NCBI GenBank assembly: GCA_028276405.1 | Contig: JAPYWJ010000003.1 | Span: 1-64,000 of the forward strand | Source: Hydrogenobacter sp. | GTDB taxonomy: Bacteria; Aquificota; Aquificia; Aquificales; Aquificaceae | Direction of reading: 5' to 3' | DNA: 64,000 bases | Shown here: positions 2,475 through 13,165 of the stretch, piece after piece | How positions within the stretch are numbered: position 1 is the first letter of the stretch | How the letters are laid out: each line of letters starts with the position of its first letter | Translations under genes and position numbers: made by a program | Notes under the pieces: model-generated | Seen by the model: the letters and a program-made list of their open reading frames with translations, nothing else | Database searches by the model: none | What the model was told of the DNA's origin: nothing

Positions 2475-3617
2475 ATGCTAAGAATACTCAAAAAAAAGAC
2501 GAAAACAGCTAACAGAGATAGGTCTAACATAAAGGTGGGCATTCCCAAGTTTTTGAACATATGGAGCACCCACCAGTTCTGGGTTGGTTTTTTTGAAAAG
2601 CTCGGTGTTAAAGTGATCTTCAGCTCGGACACTTCCGAAGAGCAATACAGACAGTATGGTAAAGGAAGGATAACCATGGACAGTTGCTTTCCCGTAAAGG
2701 CTCTAGCAGGACACATAGGGGAGCTTATTACAAAAGAGGTGGACATTATCTTTGTACCCATGATATATTCTCTTCCCTCCTTCCTAAAAGGGCATGTGCT
2801 TGATACTCTTAGTTGTACAAGGGTTATGATGGCTCCAGAGAACATAAAGGCAGGATTCACAAAAGAGAGGGACGAGTTTCTCTCTAAAGGTACAAGGTAC
2901 ATATCGCCCTTTATCACTTTTGGTGAACCTGAACTTCTTCCCAAACAACTTTACGAGGCTTTAAAATCAGTTATTGATGTGTCTTATCAAGAGATGGTTG
3001 ACGCAGTTTTGTACGGGCTTAAGTCCCTTGAGGAGTTTGACGCTTATGCAAGAAGCAAGAGTCTTGAGATCATAAGGTGGTGCGTTAAAGAAAACAGACC
3101 CGCTCTTTTGGTTCTCGCAAGACCTTATCACATGGATACAGGTATAGGGCACGAGATAGATGCAGAATTCCAGACTTACGGATATCCTGTACTTTGGTAT
3201 AATTACCTACCTTTAGAAGATTGGCTGTTGGACTGGCTTTTTGGTTATGATGTAAAGGCAGGCATTATAAGGAGCTACTTGGACATATCAGATGTGTGGA
3301 CTTCTTCGTACAGCTCAAACACCAACGAAATCATATGGGGTGCCAAGTTTGCCAGTAGGTTTCCATGGATAACTGGAGTTATAAGGCTTTCCAGTTATGA
3401 GTGCGGTATGGACCAACCCACTTACACACCCGTACAAAAGATAGTTGAAAGCAGAGGTACACTTTTCTTTAAATTCGGAGAGCTTGACGAAACAAAACCC
3501 GCTGGAAGTATAAAAATAAGAGTGGAAACCATAGTGTATTACTTGGAAAAGTATTCCACGGATATAATACAAAGAAAACTCAAAAAATTACCCCCTGTCC
3601 CGAAAGAACTTCTCTAA
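2475..3617 (+). CDS. DUF2229 protein, related to the acyl-CoA dehydratase activase accessory domain
   Basis: The 380-residue protein has the DUF2229 layout. An N-terminal KVGIPKFLNIWS block is followed by FFEKLGVKVIFSSDTSEEQY, DSCFPVKALAGHI and a VDIIFVPMIYSLP block, and near residue 220 by LARPYHMDTGIGHEID. In larger proteins this domain accompanies the ATP-dependent activase of 2-hydroxyacyl-CoA dehydratases. Here it stands alone: no ASKHA ATPase domain and no dehydratase gene is nearby. Cysteines in DSCFPVK, SCTRV and YECGM could bind a cluster, but this is inference. No signal peptide is present, so it should be cytoplasmic. The start is set by the closely spaced -10 box. Biochemical function is unknown. 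Confidence 0.7.
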   Translation: MLRILKKKTKTANRDRSNIKVGIPKFLNIWSTHQFWVGFFEKLGVKVIFSSDTSEEQYRQYGKGRITMDSCFPVKALAGHIGELITKEVDIIFVPMIYSLPSFLKGHVLDTLSCTRVMMAPENIKAGFTKERDEFLSKGTRYISPFITFGEPELLPKQLYEALKSVIDVSYQEMVDAVLYGLKSLEEFDAYARSKSLEIIRWCVKENRPALLVLARPYHMDTGIGHEIDAEFQTYGYPVLWYNYLPLEDWLLDWLFGYDVKAGIIRSYLDISDVWTSSYSSNTNEIIWGAKFASRFPWITGVIRLSSYECGMDQPTYTPVQKIVESRGTLFFKFGELDETKPAGSIKIRVETIVYYLEKYSTDIIQRKLKKLPPVPKELL

Positions 3618-3632
3618 GTGATCTTTATCATA

Positions 3633-3660
3633 TTGACATCTGGTTTCAATTTTTTGTAAT
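3633..3660 (+). promoter_or_regulatory. Promoter of the porin-cytochrome operon
   Basis: TTGACA at 3633-3638 is followed after 16 bases by TGTAAT at 3655-3660. Transcription would start near 3667, giving a leader of about 30 bases with a strong AGGAGGT (3685-3691) before the ATG at 3699. Confidence 0.6.
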
Positions 3661-3698
3661 ATTGTTGATATTAAATCTCAATACAGGAGGTATAGAGC

Positions 3699-5054
3699 AT
3701 GAAGAGGGTACTCTTGCTTTCAGCTCTGTTTTCTGCAATTGCTGTAGCACAACCTACCGAAGAAAAAATAAGACAGTTAGAAGAGCAGATAAGGGCTCTT
3801 CAACAGGAAATTCAAAAGCTAAAAGAAGAACAAAAGAAAACTGAGGAAGTTAAACAGGAAACAGATGTGCTTAAGGAAGAGATAAGAAAGCTCAGGCTTG
3901 AGATAGCGATGCCTCAACTTGAGATTAAATCTTATTCTGGATTGGGACCTGCCGCCTCAAAGGCTATGTTTAACCCTCGGGGTGTTTCCATAGGCGGATA
4001 CGGAGAAATCCACTTTCTTCACAATCCTGATAAAAAGCCAAAAAACACTGTGGATGCCAAAAGGTTGATACTTTACTTTGGTTATGCCTTCAACGAAAAG
4101 CTAAAATTTAATTCAGAAATTGAGTGGGAACATGCCTTTGTTGAAGGTGGAGAGGAAAGCGGAGAAACCGCAGTAGAGTTTGCTTTTATAGACTACAACT
4201 TTAATGAAAAATTGGGATTGAGAGGTGGTCTTATTCTTATTCCCGTGGGGATCATCAACGAATTTCATGAACCTCCCACCTTTCCAAGTGTTGATAGACC
4301 TTATCTTGAAAGAAACATAATACCTACAACTTGGAGAGAGCTTGGTTTTGGAGCTTACGGGAAGCTGGGAAACCTTGAGTACAGAGCGTACATCACCAAC
4401 GGGTTAAAGCCTAATAAAGAGGCGGGAGAAAAGATTGAAAAGGGAGAACTTCTAAAAGGTTTTAGACAAAACGGTTTTAAGGCAGTCTCAGACCAAATGG
4501 CTTTTTCGGGAAGACTTGACTATAACCTTCCGTATAACCTAAAAATAGGAGCAAGCGGATTTTTTGGTGGCGTGCAAGATGATAAAGGCAAAAAGCTCGG
4601 AACCTTAAACCTAATCTCTCCTCATCTGTGGTGGCAGTATGATGGGTGGGATGTAAGATTTGTAGGAGCATACGGAGCTACCTCTGGAGCAGATAAGATA
4701 TCCCAGGAGATAAGCACAAACCCCGCATGCCAACTTGGTGATACCACCCAGTGTACCACATTTCCTAAAAAGTTTTACGGATTTTATACGCAGGTAGCAT
4801 ACGATGTGCTAAGGCTTTTAGGAATCCCTGACCAACAGCTTTATGTGTTTGGCATTTATGAAAACTACAACACGCATGCGAGTGTACCAGAAGGCTTTGA
4901 AAAACCTTCAGGACATAAGGTGCAGGTTTTTAATGTGGGACTCTCCTATAAACCTCACCCTTTAATAGCACTAAAAGCGGACTATGTACGCCTTTCTCCC
5001 AAGGATGCCAAAAAGCAAAACATTTACAGGTTAGCCCTTGGATGGATGTTTTAG
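3699..5054 (+). CDS. Outer-membrane beta-barrel porin with N-terminal coiled coil
   Basis: A 451-residue exported protein. Residues 1-18 form a signal peptide (MKRVLLLSALFSAIAVAQ). Residues about 20-68 are heptad-rich Glu/Lys/Leu (LEEQIRALQQEIQKLKEE), a coiled coil that can trimerise or reach into the periplasm. The remainder is a run of alternating beta strands ending in an aromatic residue (YRLALGWMF), the usual outer-membrane assembly signal. It resembles phosphate-selective porin O/P-type proteins, but its substrate cannot be read from sequence. It is first in an operon with a diheme cytochrome lipoprotein, 10 bases downstream, and a flavin-binding exported protein, so a role in an envelope electron-transfer or solute-uptake complex is plausible. 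Confidence 0.8.
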   Translation: MKRVLLLSALFSAIAVAQPTEEKIRQLEEQIRALQQEIQKLKEEQKKTEEVKQETDVLKEEIRKLRLEIAMPQLEIKSYSGLGPAASKAMFNPRGVSIGGYGEIHFLHNPDKKPKNTVDAKRLILYFGYAFNEKLKFNSEIEWEHAFVEGGEESGETAVEFAFIDYNFNEKLGLRGGLILIPVGIINEFHEPPTFPSVDRPYLERNIIPTTWRELGFGAYGKLGNLEYRAYITNGLKPNKEAGEKIEKGELLKGFRQNGFKAVSDQMAFSGRLDYNLPYNLKIGASGFFGGVQDDKGKKLGTLNLISPHLWWQYDGWDVRFVGAYGATSGADKISQEISTNPACQLGDTTQCTTFPKKFYGFYTQVAYDVLRLLGIPDQQLYVFGIYENYNTHASVPEGFEKPSGHKVQVFNVGLSYKPHPLIALKADYVRLSPKDAKKQNIYRLALGWMF

Positions 5055-5064
5055 GAGGGTCAGC

Positions 5065-6714
5065 ATGAGAAGGCTTGTGCTATTATCTGCAATAGTTCTC
5101 TATTCATGTGGTGGAGGAGGGGGAGGAGTAAAAGAAGAAAAAAGCTTTGTTAACCCTGAGCCTAACATACCCCTTGAATGCTACACTGACACAGGCATCG
5201 TGAGATACGGAAAGGCGATAGCAAACCCTTGTTATGTATGCCACACGCAAGCCAACACACCTTATGCCAACGAAAAATCAGATATGGATCTAACCCTTAA
5301 CTACTCTTTTCCTAATGAGATACTAAAGATAGGAAATCCTTGGCTCAACGCAATAAGACCAGACTTAACCTTGGCAGGTGTAGATGTTCCTTCTGACGCA
5401 GAGGTGCAAAGCTATATAAGGCAAGATAACTGGAGCTTTGCTTACAGGAATAGAGGTAGCGGAGACCTTAAATACTTTCCTGATGTGCCACCATTGTACT
5501 CATACACAGGTGGAGGGTATAACTTGGCAAATATTGATATGGAGGGTTTTGTATTAGACCCTGAAACTGGAGAATACACTGGTTGGAGAGTTTTCAAGTG
5601 GAAACCCTTCCCGGGCTTTTTCCCCACAAACGGTAGGATAGATTCAACCTTGATAAGACTTGACAGACCCTTCAGAGAAAGTGGAGGAGTATTCAACAAG
5701 GAGATTTACAAGAAAAACTTAGCCATAGTGGAGTGTGCGGTGAAAGGAGTAAAGCCCGGTGAAGTTTGCAGAAACACGGAAGTAGGAGACTTTACAATGC
5801 CAGAGCATTACGAAGGGGATGCAAGTGGTGTAGTTGTGATAACATACCAGTATCCACCGGGCACCGAATTCGCACATCCTCTCTATTACTTGGACCCCTC
5901 AAACACAATATCTTACAAATCTCTCCGTATAAGGGAAATGCGGTATATGAAAAAGTTGGCTTATGCAGATGTCCAAAAAGGTGGCGAGGAGGAAGAGAGA
6001 AGCTTCTTTTGGGACAAAGGGCTTGTGTTTAATGATAGTAAAAACTGGATAATGGCAGGGTTTATAGAGGATAAGGATGGATGGTTGAGACCTCAAAGTG
6101 CTCAGGAGATGAAGTTTTGTGTAGCGTGTCATGGGGGCATAGGGGGAACCGTTGATGCTACTTTTACATATTGGCGAAAAGTTCCCGGTGCAGATGGTTG
6201 GATGGAACAGGATTACAATTTGAGTGTTAAGAACATAAAAGACTGGACTTATGCAAGCTTAGAAGGAGACACAGGACCTGAGATTAAAAAGCTTTTACCT
6301 CTTGTAAAGGGAGAGTATCAGCTTTACTTTTCAATGACCAACGGTGGAGATCACTTTAGAAGCAATGAAGAGATACGCTCAAGGATAAGTAAAGATGTAA
6401 ACAAGATATCGTTTATACTTTCGCCCCAGGACAACATTATCACAAACCCAAGCCTTATAAACTATCTAGATGACGAAGGCTACATAAAACCTGAACTTTT
6501 TCTTCCTTCGCCTGAACGTGCATACGGTATAGATAAACAGTACATGAGAGTAGTAAAAGCTCAAGGGTTCATCTTTGGAAGGGATGTTTTTGATAGACCT
6601 TTTGGTGTTTCATCAGGTGGGAACTCTTTAGAAAGGCTTGACACTGTAAAAAGCACTGGAGTAAAGGAGGCTGGCATATGGGCTTTTATAAAGACTCTTC
6701 TGTTTTTAAAGTAG
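5065..6714 (+). CDS. Diheme c-type cytochrome lipoprotein, uncharacterised
   Basis: The start is ATG 5065, preceded by AGGAGGG at 5053-5059; the frame is open a little further upstream but has no ribosome site. The 549-residue product begins with a lipoprotein signal (VLYSC, acylated Cys15) followed by a glycine linker. Two haem-attachment motifs are visible, CYVCH at residues 56-60 and CVACH at 352-356, about 300 residues apart. Long aromatic-rich stretches lie between and after them. I do not recognise a named family. It should be anchored in the envelope and carry electrons. It lies between the porin and an exported flavoprotein, suggesting that all three act together. Confidence 0.75.
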   Translation: MRRLVLLSAIVLYSCGGGGGGVKEEKSFVNPEPNIPLECYTDTGIVRYGKAIANPCYVCHTQANTPYANEKSDMDLTLNYSFPNEILKIGNPWLNAIRPDLTLAGVDVPSDAEVQSYIRQDNWSFAYRNRGSGDLKYFPDVPPLYSYTGGGYNLANIDMEGFVLDPETGEYTGWRVFKWKPFPGFFPTNGRIDSTLIRLDRPFRESGGVFNKEIYKKNLAIVECAVKGVKPGEVCRNTEVGDFTMPEHYEGDASGVVVITYQYPPGTEFAHPLYYLDPSNTISYKSLRIREMRYMKKLAYADVQKGGEEEERSFFWDKGLVFNDSKNWIMAGFIEDKDGWLRPQSAQEMKFCVACHGGIGGTVDATFTYWRKVPGADGWMEQDYNLSVKNIKDWTYASLEGDTGPEIKKLLPLVKGEYQLYFSMTNGGDHFRSNEEIRSRISKDVNKISFILSPQDNIITNPSLINYLDDEGYIKPELFLPSPERAYGIDKQYMRVVKAQGFIFGRDVFDRPFGVSSGGNSLERLDTVKSTGVKEAGIWAFIKTLLFLK

Positions 6715-6724
6715 GTATTAAAAT

Positions 6725-7279
6725 ATGTTAAGCATGTGCAAGTGGTGTGCTTTGTTTATCATACTCTTTTGTTTTATCTCTTTTGCGGTAGATAGCTCTG
6801 CAAGGGATTTCAAAACTCCACAACAGGCTCTTAAGGATGCCTTCCCAGGTGCAAGCATAGAGGTTAAAAACATAGTACTTTCAAAACTGCAGGTGGAAAA
6901 CATAGAAAGGCTCTCTGGCGTAAAACTAAATACAAGGCTCGTATCTTGGTACATAGCCAAAAGAGGGAATTCTATTGTAGGATACGCATACATAGACACG
7001 CATACAGTCCGAACCCATCCCGAGGTAGTGTTATACACCATAACACCAGAAGGGAAGATAGACTTAGTGGAAGTGCTTTCTTTCAACGAGCCTCTTGAGT
7101 ATATGCCCGATGAAAACTGGCTAAAGCTCTTTAAAGGAAAGATGTTAACAGCAGATGCTCTAAGACTTAGAAGGGACATACCCAACATGACAGGTGCTAC
7201 CCTCACATCAAGAGCTATCACTGACAACACAAGAAAGGTGCTTGCCATGTGGCAGGTGATCTTCGGAGGTGAGAGATGA
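6725..7279 (+). CDS. Exported FMN-binding-domain protein (probable covalent flavin carrier)
   Basis: The 184-residue protein has an N-terminal hydrophobic export segment (residues about 8-22) and an FMN_bind-like domain ending in NMTGATLTSRA. The TGAT at residues 156-159 matches the (S/T)GA(S/T) site where ApbE-type transferases attach FMN to NqrC, RnfG and related proteins; the threonine would carry the flavin. The usual acidic residue three places before the threonine is proline here, with Asp151 five places before, so flavinylation is likely but not certain. No apbE gene is in the window. The stop overlaps the next gene by four bases. It probably relays electrons to or from the diheme cytochrome upstream. 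Confidence 0.7.
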   Translation: MLSMCKWCALFIILFCFISFAVDSSARDFKTPQQALKDAFPGASIEVKNIVLSKLQVENIERLSGVKLNTRLVSWYIAKRGNSIVGYAYIDTHTVRTHPEVVLYTITPEGKIDLVEVLSFNEPLEYMPDENWLKLFKGKMLTADALRLRRDIPNMTGATLTSRAITDNTRKVLAMWQVIFGGER

Positions 7280-8196
7280 GGTTTTTCATATCTGCTAACA
7301 TAAAAAGCAACAGACCTCTCTATTACCTGATCCTTACTTTTTTGTTACTTCTACTGCTTTATTGGGCAAGTTCTTGGGTGTATTTTTATCACAAATATGG
7401 TTTTACCTACTCATCAAGTTTCAAGTACTTTTTTGGAGACCCAAACTTCCCCGAAAGGATATCCATCTCTCAGCTCTCTGAAGACATGCATGTGGATCTA
7501 TTTTTGAAGGCTTTCTACATTTTGGTGCTATTTTCTCTTTTTCTACTATCTTCTTTTTCCGAAAAGCTAAAGACTACTTTGCTTGTTGGAACCGCTTTCT
7601 TCGGTATATGTGTGCTACTTTCTGACCTCCTTATTATCTACGCATCACCACTTTTTATATACATAAAGCTGTTTTCTTTTTTTGTATACCAGATCATCAG
7701 CGGCTTAGTGCTGTTTTTAACGTTCCTTTTTTTCCTTTTCATGGGTGAGGATAAAACTACAGGTATCTCAAATATTAAACTCATCCTTTTGGTGTTTTCG
7801 TTATTTTTATTTCTCTTTACATGTATAAACTTTATAGTCTTCTTTTCAAAGATGGGCTTTACCATTCAAAGTATTAAAAACTATTACCTGGGAGACCCAT
7901 CCTCTTTCACAAAACCTAAAACTTTTGAAGGAATGTTTAAAGTCTTTCATCCCCATCTTCTGTCTATGGCTGTTTATTCTATAACTGTTTCTCATCTTCT
8001 CCTTTTTACTAACTCCAAAGGAAAGCTATTGCTGGGTATTTCCCTTTTTTTACTTTCTTTTCTTGATAACTTATCGGGCTTTCTGGTTAGGTTTGTGTAT
8101 CCAAAAATGGCTATTGTCAAAGTGTTTGTCTTTTTACTCCTTCAATGTCTGCTTTTTTACACTTCTCTTCTTCTGTTTCGCAGTTCAAAAGCTTAG
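7276..8196 (+). CDS. Polytopic membrane protein of the cytochrome/flavoprotein operon
   Basis: A 306-residue, strongly hydrophobic protein with about eight predicted membrane helices arranged as two similar halves. Each half has a helix, then a periplasmic-type loop containing YFFGDP or YYLGDP, then three more helices. This repeat (KYFFGDPNFPE near residue 56, NYYLGDPSSF near 203) suggests internal duplication. It starts at ATG 7276, overlapping the flavoprotein stop (ATGA), with GGAGGTGAG upstream, so translation is coupled. No named family is recognised. It may be the membrane anchor or quinone-facing part of the module. Its last 80 bases overlap the convergent MATE gene. Confidence 0.65.
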   Translation: MRFFISANIKSNRPLYYLILTFLLLLLLYWASSWVYFYHKYGFTYSSSFKYFFGDPNFPERISISQLSEDMHVDLFLKAFYILVLFSLFLLSSFSEKLKTTLLVGTAFFGICVLLSDLLIIYASPLFIYIKLFSFFVYQIISGLVLFLTFLFFLFMGEDKTTGISNIKLILLVFSLFLFLFTCINFIVFFSKMGFTIQSIKNYYLGDPSSFTKPKTFEGMFKVFHPHLLSMAVYSITVSHLLLFTNSKGKLLLGISLFLLSFLDNLSGFLVRFVYPKMAIVKVFVFLLLQCLLFYTSLLLFRSSKA

Positions 8197-9541
8197 ACAT
8201 CTCCCTTCTGTATGCTATGTAGAAGATAATAGCCCTTGTGGTCATTTCTACGCTCATAAACACCCACGGCACAAGTGGTGTATGGAAGTACTTGAGTAAA
8301 AAGTATGAGGGTATTATCCTAAAGACCCAAAAGGACAGTGAATTTACAAGGAGAGGTATGTAAGTTTTACCCATACCCTTAAGAGCTCCCGAATATATGC
8401 TGGCATAAGCCATCTGTGGTTGAGAAAAGGCAACTATCACTAGATAATAAACTGCATACTCTATGACCTGAACATCTCTTGTAAATATGAGAGAAAAGTA
8501 TCTGGGAAACAAAGCAAGTAGTACACCCATGAAACCCATCAGTAAAGCTGTTATGTGAGCAGTGATCCTAATACCATAATCTAAACCAGAGTAATTTTTC
8601 GCACCCCAGTTTTGTCCCGAAAGTGTGGTGGACGCTACCATAAACCCAAAGCCTATCATAAAGGAAGCGCTTTCAACCCTAAGACCTATTTGATGAGCTG
8701 CAAGCACCTTATCCCCAAAGCTTGCCAAAAAACCTACAAATATGTTAAAAGATAAACTTGAAAAAGCCCTCTCAAAAGCGGTGGGTGTTCCTATACGAAG
8801 GATGTTTAAGAGTACTCTCTTATCCCAATTCCAAGTTATAGGAAAGGGCTTTTTCTTTGTTATGTAAAGAAGCACATATGCCAAAAAGCCTACCAATTCT
8901 GAAAGGGCAATACCCCATCCAGCACCGCGCACTTCTATCCTTGGAAATCCCAAGTTGCCGTATATAAGAAGGTAGGCGCTGGATATATTGACCACATTCA
9001 TAAGCAGGGCAACTTGGAAGGGTGTTTTTGTATCTCCATAACCGTTGTAAGCAGCATACACAGTGTTGGTAATAAAGCCAACAGTTATAAAAGCAAATAT
9101 AGGATCAAGGTAATCTCTTGCTAAATTCACCACCTGCTCAGATGCACCAAACTTTCCCATTAAAAAGGTCACCAAGTCTGTACCTACAAAAGTAAGAGGC
9201 AGAGCTATCAAAAAAGATATAAGCAAACCCCACAGTAGTGCAGGAGATGGGTCTTTCCTTGCACCTGTCATCTGGGCTACAAGTACAGATGTACCCGTGT
9301 AAGACAGAGCCATCAAGGAGTATATAAACCAGAGCATGCTTGCAGAATAGCCTACCGCTGCAACCGCAGTTGAGGAGAGACCAGAAACGAGTATTATAGA
9401 AAAAGCGCTTTCCACAGTATAGAGCAAGTTGGAAAGTATTATAGGCAAGGCTAATTTGATAACCTTCCGCGCTACAGAGCGCCACCCTTCCTTTGGGTTG
9501 ACAATGAGTCTGTTCTTCTTATTCAAAGAAGTTTCAGGCAT
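8117..9541 (-). CDS. MATE-family multidrug/cation antiporter
   Basis: A 474-residue membrane protein with about 12 hydrophobic helices in two halves, typical of MATE exporters that extrude cationic or organic compounds using a Na+ or H+ gradient. Characteristic segments include LALPIILSNLLYTVESAFS in helix 1, TGTSVLVAQMTGAR after helix 2, YAAYNGYGDTKTPF between the halves, and LAAHQIGLRVES in the second half. It is divergent from moeA and converges with the membrane protein ending at 8196, overlapping it by 80 bases. The substrate is not predictable. No riboswitch is visible in the 43-base upstream gap. Confidence 0.85.
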   Translation of the reverse strand: MPETSLNKKNRLIVNPKEGWRSVARKVIKLALPIILSNLLYTVESAFSIILVSGLSSTAVAAVGYSASMLWFIYSLMALSYTGTSVLVAQMTGARKDPSPALLWGLLISFLIALPLTFVGTDLVTFLMGKFGASEQVVNLARDYLDPIFAFITVGFITNTVYAAYNGYGDTKTPFQVALLMNVVNISSAYLLIYGNLGFPRIEVRGAGWGIALSELVGFLAYVLLYITKKKPFPITWNWDKRVLLNILRIGTPTAFERAFSSLSFNIFVGFLASFGDKVLAAHQIGLRVESASFMIGFGFMVASTTLSGQNWGAKNYSGLDYGIRITAHITALLMGFMGVLLALFPRYFSLIFTRDVQVIEYAVYYLVIVAFSQPQMAYASIYSGALKGMGKTYIPLLVNSLSFWVFRIIPSYFLLKYFHTPLVPWVFMSVEMTTRAIIFYIAYRREMSKLLNCETEEEKCKKADIEGVKRQTL

Positions 9542-12286: not shown

Positions 12287-12304
12287 CTTTTGGAGGGTGT
12301 GCCT

Positions 12305-13165
12305 ATGAAAAAACTTTTCGTAGTAGCGGGTTTTTCCGCTCTACTTTTCTCGTGTGGGGGCTCCGGTGGAGGTTCTGGTGAAGGTTCTACCTCTTCTGCT
12401 TCTTCTATACCTGTATATTTTACTGATGATATGAGTGTATATCCTTCCATACTGGTCAAAGTTTACGAGGTGAACCTGTGCTCTGACAATAACTGTCAGC
12501 AGAAGGTGAATCTCTTTACAAGCCAGCAAGGACTACAAACAGACCTTGCGAAATTAAACGGCGTTCTTCAGTACATAACAACTGCTAACATCCCACAGGG
12601 CACTTACAACAGGCTCGAGGTGATTATGGATAAGAATCTTACCATAACAGATTCTAACAACATAACACACCAAGCTGTGTTTACACCAATGAACGAAAAA
12701 CCCAACAAACCCAACACGGTGCAGTGTGATACTCAAAGATGCTACATTAGGTTCAACGGTGTGGTGCAGCCTTTTTCTATGGGAAAACTCGTCATTGATT
12801 TTGTGTTAAAAGAGTTTGAAGTAGACACAAGCACAGACCCATGGCAGGTGTACCAAGTAAAAATGAAGCCACTGACACCCCAAGAAACAGCAGGCAAGAC
12901 AAATGAAATACACCTTATGGTGCAAAGTACAAGTGTGCAGAATAACAACTTTACAGGTACATGGATGGGTAAAACCTATACGGTTAACTTGACCCAAGCT
13001 ACCGCGTGCAAGATGAATCATACATTTTACCCTATAAGCCAATGCTTAAGTCAGGTACAGCAGGGCATGTGTGTTGAAGTAAAAGTCCAGGAGGATCCCG
13101 CAACATCCACAAGCCTAACTGCTGTTAAAATAGAAACAGAAGATACCAGAAAGTGTGTTAAGTAG
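12305..13165 (+). CDS. DUF4382-like lipoprotein
   Basis: The start is ATG 12305 with GGAGGG at 12292-12297. The 286-residue product has a lipoprotein signal (lipobox LLFSC) followed by a Gly/Ser linker. The folded part begins IPVYFTDDMS, continues ILVKVYEVNLC, and contains LNGVLQYITTANIPQGTYNRLEV, the pattern of DUF4382 proteins (a transthyretin-like fold of unknown function: x-V-x-D-P ... I-P-x-G-x-Y). Several cysteine pairs (LCSDNNC, CDTQRC) could form disulfides. It is probably surface-exposed or periplasmic. It runs with the GT39 gene upstream and the tRNA-binding gene two bases downstream. Confidence 0.65.
   Translation: MKKLFVVAGFSALLFSCGGSGGGSGEGSTSSASSIPVYFTDDMSVYPSILVKVYEVNLCSDNNCQQKVNLFTSQQGLQTDLAKLNGVLQYITTANIPQGTYNRLEVIMDKNLTITDSNNITHQAVFTPMNEKPNKPNTVQCDTQRCYIRFNGVVQPFSMGKLVIDFVLKEFEVDTSTDPWQVYQVKMKPLTPQETAGKTNEIHLMVQSTSVQNNNFTGTWMGKTYTVNLTQATACKMNHTFYPISQCLSQVQQGMCVEVKVQEDPATSTSLTAVKIETEDTRKCVK

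Follow-up and report, generated by a model that had tools for sequence, protein, structure and literature searches.

A flavin carrier encoded beside an eight-helix membrane protein is the core of a redox module in the envelope of Aquificota, and this core is served by ApbE and usually accompanied by a porin. The module is probably a new form of ApbE-dependent flavinylated electron transfer, in which the membrane component itself is probably new and the cassette of porin and dihaem cytochrome is optional.

The locus and its flavin-membrane core

The window, which is the whole stretch of 64,000 nucleotides analysed here, comes from contig 19 of a nearly complete 1.36-Mb genome. Four open reading frames, all on the forward strand, encode in order a porin (3699-5054), a cytochrome (5065-6714), an FMN_bind protein (6725-7279), and a membrane protein with eight helices (7276-8196). 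Each of the first two junctions is a gap of 10 bases and the third is an overlap of 4 bases, just as an earlier note on this DNA had described. Relatives in the same genus keep all four genes in unchanged order with 69-93% identity, and we therefore regard the four frames as coding genes. The earlier note also placed a single promoter ahead of them. A sigma-70-like sequence, TTGACA-18-TAATAT, with 10 of 12 consensus matches, is indeed present upstream of the porin gene (3633-3662, forward strand), but a scan found promoter-like sites in the region no more often than in shuffled sequence, so the promoter is plausible by position only. In a scan of genome contigs the locus had one close relative only, and a scan of viral contigs returned none.

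Two neighbours flank the locus. Just upstream of the promoter lies a gene (2475-3617) for a DUF2229 (CoA enzyme activase-associated) protein that lacks its usual partner; among the relatives fetched, only G002 (L025) shares this neighbour. At the other end lies a MATE-family transporter gene on the opposite strand (8117-9541); it and the eight-helix gene run tail to tail and share 80 bases at the 3' end of the latter (8117-8196), an overlap conserved among genus relatives.

The third gene (6725-7279, forward strand) encodes an exported, RnfG-like FMN_bind carrier of 184 residues. Its FMN_bind domain (PF04205) scores above the Pfam cut-off and contains the predicted flavinylation motif TGAT (residues 156-159; 7190-7201, forward strand), of which G157, A158, and T159 are invariant among homologues. 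ApbE-dependent proteins are flavinylated at the motif [ST]GA[ST] (PMC8238504), and FMN is predicted to be carried on T159. The domain and the motif thus agree with the exported flavin-site protein of the earlier note, flavinylation itself being a prediction. The carrier is like RnfG in being an FMN_bind protein and finds in RnfG (TIGR01947) its best, though weak, NCBIfam match; however, it reaches 22.4 bits against a cut-off of 102, and no other gene for an Rnf subunit lies in the neighbourhood of the locus. The window's own genome contains a single ApbE, encoded on another contig beside an apparent homoserine kinase gene. In many relatives apbE adjoins the cluster.

To follow these genes across the phylum we surveyed 136 Aquificota genomes. 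The eight-helix protein is found in 69, FMN_bind in 65, and ApbE in 71 (16, 16, and 17 of 30 genera), counts that are not independent because the genomes are related, so that Fisher values overstate independence. Both the FMN_bind and the eight-helix gene occur in 64 genomes, where they are always adjacent, and 62 of these genomes encode no other FMN_bind protein. An ApbE is encoded by 64 of the 69 genomes that have an eight-helix gene versus 7 of the 67 that do not; the few that have the gene and no detectable ApbE include G001, which is 99% complete. In 24 genomes no more than 6 kb separates apbE from the eight-helix gene, in 29 it is no more than 3 kb from the porin gene, and in 42 of 61 the porin and eight-helix genes are no more than 3 kb apart. 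Because of this adjacency and co-occurrence we consider the FMN_bind and eight-helix proteins to be the core. Linkage of the cluster in relatives, on which the earlier note had staked its reading, is thus retained. Its linked envelope redox module stands, but the four genes do not form a single obligate unit, since the cytochrome is optional.

The eight-helix protein (306 residues; 7276-8196, forward strand) is predicted to reside in the inner membrane. Its eight helices, already proposed in the earlier note, agree with hydrophobicity and with a low-confidence AlphaFold model (pLDDT 57). None of eight members of the family had a Pfam match at E up to 1. Sequence comparison shows that the protein is a fused tandem duplication of a four-helix unit. 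In several genera of one family it is encoded as two genes of about 150 codons each, and hhalign shows the two half-gene families to be homologous to one another (E 1.2e-13) as well as to the halves of the fusion. The two similar halves of the earlier note are confirmed by this profile comparison of half-genes from another lineage. The GDP loop that it saw in each half is conserved as a loop, but the GDP triplet is not invariant, being TDP, GPP, or GNP in relatives.

Three histidines, all located on helices, are invariant in 23 of 23 full-length homologues: His72 in the second helix of the N half (7489-7491), His227 in the second helix of the C half (7954-7956), and His240, 13 residues past His227 (7993-7995), all on the forward strand. 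Likewise, the first of the separate half-genes retains a single histidine and the second a pair spaced 13 apart. This arrangement resembles the ligand patterns of haem b, and haem b binding is predicted, the low confidence of the structural model counting against it. The three histidines would provide one bis-His site with one left over, compared with four histidines in DUF4405. By hhalign, DUF4405 and the eight-helix protein align with E 0.54 and a probability of 0.1%. A plasmid search with the eight-helix protein or its half found nothing.

The porin and its optional dihaem partner

The first gene (3699-5054, forward strand) encodes an outer-membrane porin of 451 residues with a signal peptide, a coiled-coil stalk at about residues 20-75, and a beta-barrel that is probably OprO/P- or BBP2-like, confirming the stalked barrel of the earlier note. 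PF07396 (Porin_O_P) matches three of 11 members of the porin family (best E 3e-5) and PF07642 (BBP2) one of 11 (E 7e-9); neither is among the Pfam matches listed for the window's porin itself. A second, OprB-like barrel gene occurs between FeoA-like and FeoB genes in G007, and such a gene adjoins the flavin module in G054, G098, and G046 (OprB-like loci L031:1470-4697, L037:3483-4541, L060:11309-12391, and L065:8068-9129).

The second gene (5065-6714, forward strand) encodes a dihaem c-type cytochrome lipoprotein of 549 residues that has no curated family. It carries a lipobox (LYSC) with the cysteine C15 (5107-5109) and two distant haem motifs, CYVCH at residues 56-60 (5230-5244), within the invariant pattern CYxCH, and CVACH at residues 352-356 (6118-6132), all on the forward strand. 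Both CxxCH motifs are invariant among 15 homologues, as are C39 and H271 and others, in keeping with the lipoprotein that had been described from the window. The AlphaFold model has a pLDDT of 31, and a PDB sequence search with family profiles returned nothing useful. Elsewhere in the window, another lipoprotein (12290-13165) combines a DUF4382 domain with a CGGSGGGSGEGS linker after the lipobox, in a style akin to the glycine-rich linker of the dihaem lipoprotein.

The porin's dihaem partner is optional and spreads horizontally. The lipoprotein occurs in 24 of the 136 genomes, every one of which also has the eight-helix protein, and in 17 of the 24 its gene is directly downstream of the porin gene on the same strand. 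Of the other seven, three stand alone, two follow PhoX, and two are at a contig end. Most genomes with the porin family lack any cytochrome of this kind. A divergent branch of the lipoprotein lies directly behind PhoX, of the alkaline phosphatase family, in Pseudoalteromonas megaplasmids and three Aquificota genomes (L038:6304-9913, L104:2527-5903, L039:6115-8477, L041:5897-9530, and L042:5829-9479; the cytochrome copy in L039 is broken). Apart from this branch, we met no named, unrelated pathway to which the cytochrome or the flavoprotein would belong.

Two cases bear on how the cytochrome reached its position. The cytochrome tree places G048, which belongs to another family, as sister of the window's genome (support 100) and G083, which belongs to another genus, as sister of G003 (support 97); in the trees of the flavin and membrane proteins each groups with its own genus. 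G048 shares 93% identity with its congener G111 in the flavin protein and 96% in the membrane protein, compared with 64% in the porin, whereas its identity to the window is 80% in the porin and 91% in the cytochrome. With a window-like porin and cytochrome beside congener-like flavin and membrane proteins, G048 thus exchanged porin and cytochrome together, next to a resident pair of FMN_bind and eight-helix genes. In G083 the cytochrome alone was inserted between the resident porin and FMN_bind genes. The trees show that the cytochrome has entered one and the same slot from another lineage at least twice, once with its porin, and this repeated insertion argues for a functional connection of the cytochrome to the module.

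We use only such single transfers as evidence, because clustering of the whole porin tree by cytochrome presence was not significant (8 changes versus 11.0 in shuffled labels, with 34 of 500 shuffles as low) and was rejected. An in-frame fusion of the cytochrome to part of an OprB-like barrel in G040 (907 residues), which might have proved contact, was also set aside. Each of the two partners is cut short where they join, and the cluster (L036:3636-10162) looks degenerate, with the porin split by a stop and the flavin and membrane genes broken. Decay, or an assembly or sequencing error, could account for this.

A possible route for electrons

On balance we lean towards a flavin-based electron-delivery module of the cell envelope, in which electrons would pass from quinol through the eight-helix protein, FMN, and the dihaem lipoprotein to a solute. 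The eight-helix protein would take electrons from quinol, the presumed donor, probably by way of haem b on the three invariant histidines, and would hand them to the periplasmic FMN_bind protein, on which the one ApbE of the genome would fix FMN at Thr159. Here, and in about a third of the other genomes with the module, the dihaem lipoprotein beside the porin would be the acceptor or, with lower probability, the donor; we infer both its contact with the FMN protein and the direction of flow. Within the lipoprotein, haem 1 would relay electrons to haem 2, and haem 2 would act on a small solute admitted to the periplasm by the porin. Because most genomes with the module lack the cytochrome, another acceptor must serve in these. 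The five genomes in which the cytochrome is not beside the porin count against the model. Of the transfer of electrons or reductant across the envelope suggested earlier, electron transfer is supported by inference, but a porin-cytochrome conduit across the outer membrane is not.

Links to the uptake of iron are known for other flavinylated systems (PMC8238504), and the carrier and the eight-helix protein might instead form an assimilatory metal reductase that reduces periplasmic Fe(III) for FeoB, with the porin admitting iron chelates. FeoB is encoded within 10 kb of the eight-helix gene in four genomes, and the OprB-like barrel described above accompanies FeoA/FeoB in one genome and the module in three others. 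However, 57 of 61 genomes have no close FeoB linkage, two of the four linked ones are close relatives, and the presence of FeoB in 87 of the 88 good genomes of the phylum makes its co-occurrence uninformative. We rejected FeoB linkage as a general key to function, close as it is in only 4 of 61 genomes. The dihaem lipoprotein is also left unexplained by an iron reductase, which we consider unlikely.

The cytochrome could also be a terminal enzyme for reactive nitrogen or oxygen species, fed by the flavin module, with the domain of haem 2 as a distant relative of cytochrome P460 or c'-beta that has an open site. Around the second haem motif the sequence weakly resembles cytochrome P460 (PF16694), the top-scoring Pfam entry for 13 of 15 family members (best E 4e-4, below the curated cut-off), and in Ideonella a gene of a dihaem peroxidase family precedes the porin. 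Yet all P460 scores are under that cut-off (17 bits for the window's lipoprotein and 22.6, in G110, for the highest, against 27), and CxxCH by itself raises such scores. The match spans only the haem segment GW..-F..D..G..C..CH..D..F, about 50 residues with an hhalign probability of 34%, and the family profile found no P460 sequence in the PDB. The lipoprotein further differs from P460 in being three times as long and in having a second haem and a lipid anchor. We treat the P460 resemblance of the second haem segment as a lead, and such an enzyme as distinctly improbable.

The porin-cytochrome conduit, in which the dihaem lipoprotein would plug the barrel and exchange electrons across the outer membrane with an external solid, recalls Pcc/Mtr systems in having a c-type cytochrome gene after a porin gene (the 17 of 24 genomes above), a lipoprotein cytochrome, and a pair that moved jointly at least once, but it is very unlikely with only two haems, 296 residues apart, as against the 5-14 of Pcc/Mtr periplasmic cytochromes (PMC4245776), and with a porin, probably OprO/P- or BBP2-like, that also occurs by itself.

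Flavinylated systems elsewhere

Returning to the flavin-based delivery module, its cluster logic recurs outside the phylum, where the membrane and haem parts are different ones. On plasmids of Ideonella and Methylocystis, a homologous porin, FMN_bind protein, and ApbE are encoded in a row together with a four-helix protein. Similar clusters of FMN_bind, ApbE, and four-helix genes on Sphingomonas and Novosphingobium plasmids have an unrelated barrel. In profile comparison the four-helix proteins of these proteobacterial plasmids have no detectable relation to the eight-helix protein of Aquificota, and that of Ideonella weakly resembles DUF4405. The Ideonella lipoprotein gene ahead of the porin belongs to the CCP_MauG family of dihaem peroxidases, a different cytochrome family from that of Aquificota. 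In Ideonella dechloratans (L077:4469-10597) a two-component system and the dihaem cytochrome c peroxidase gene precede the porin, FMN_bind, ApbE, and four-helix genes, and a TonB-dependent receptor lies behind the cluster on the other strand.

Our literature search found no description of a module of porin, cytochrome, FMN_bind, and eight-helix proteins, and two surveys of flavinylation (PMC8238504, PMC11334425) make no mention of porins or Aquificota. It is possible, and we propose it tentatively, that the eight-helix protein represents a further class of flavinylation-linked transmembrane carrier, a duplicated four-helix haem b protein that would feed exchangeable outer-membrane redox cassettes, here a porin together with a dihaem lipoprotein from a new family of enzymes, one that travels between lineages and docks on the flavin carrier already in place. 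Because the cytochrome has been inserted behind the porin more than once, it can be tested whether a single flavin carrier serves interchangeable outer-membrane partners, which would account for why these bacteria have just one ApbE and one FMN_bind protein.

The membrane proteins linked to flavinylation so far fall into the NapH, MsrQ, PepSY, DsbD, and RNF/NQR classes (PMC8238504) and DUF4405/FezC (PMC11334425). Like the ApbE-dependent systems of those studies, the Aquificota cluster encodes together an exported FMN_bind carrier with [ST]GA[ST], a polytopic membrane protein and, in relatives, ApbE, which in the window's genome is encoded apart. The eight-helix protein matches none of the known membrane classes by Pfam, nor DUF4405 by profile. 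The Aquificota system is set apart by the eight-helix duplication, the three invariant histidines, and the attached porin and dihaem lipoprotein. To the handful of routes by which the ApbE surveys bring electrons to extracytoplasmic flavinylated proteins, a membrane family that they do not list, and that about half of the sampled Aquificota have, would add another.
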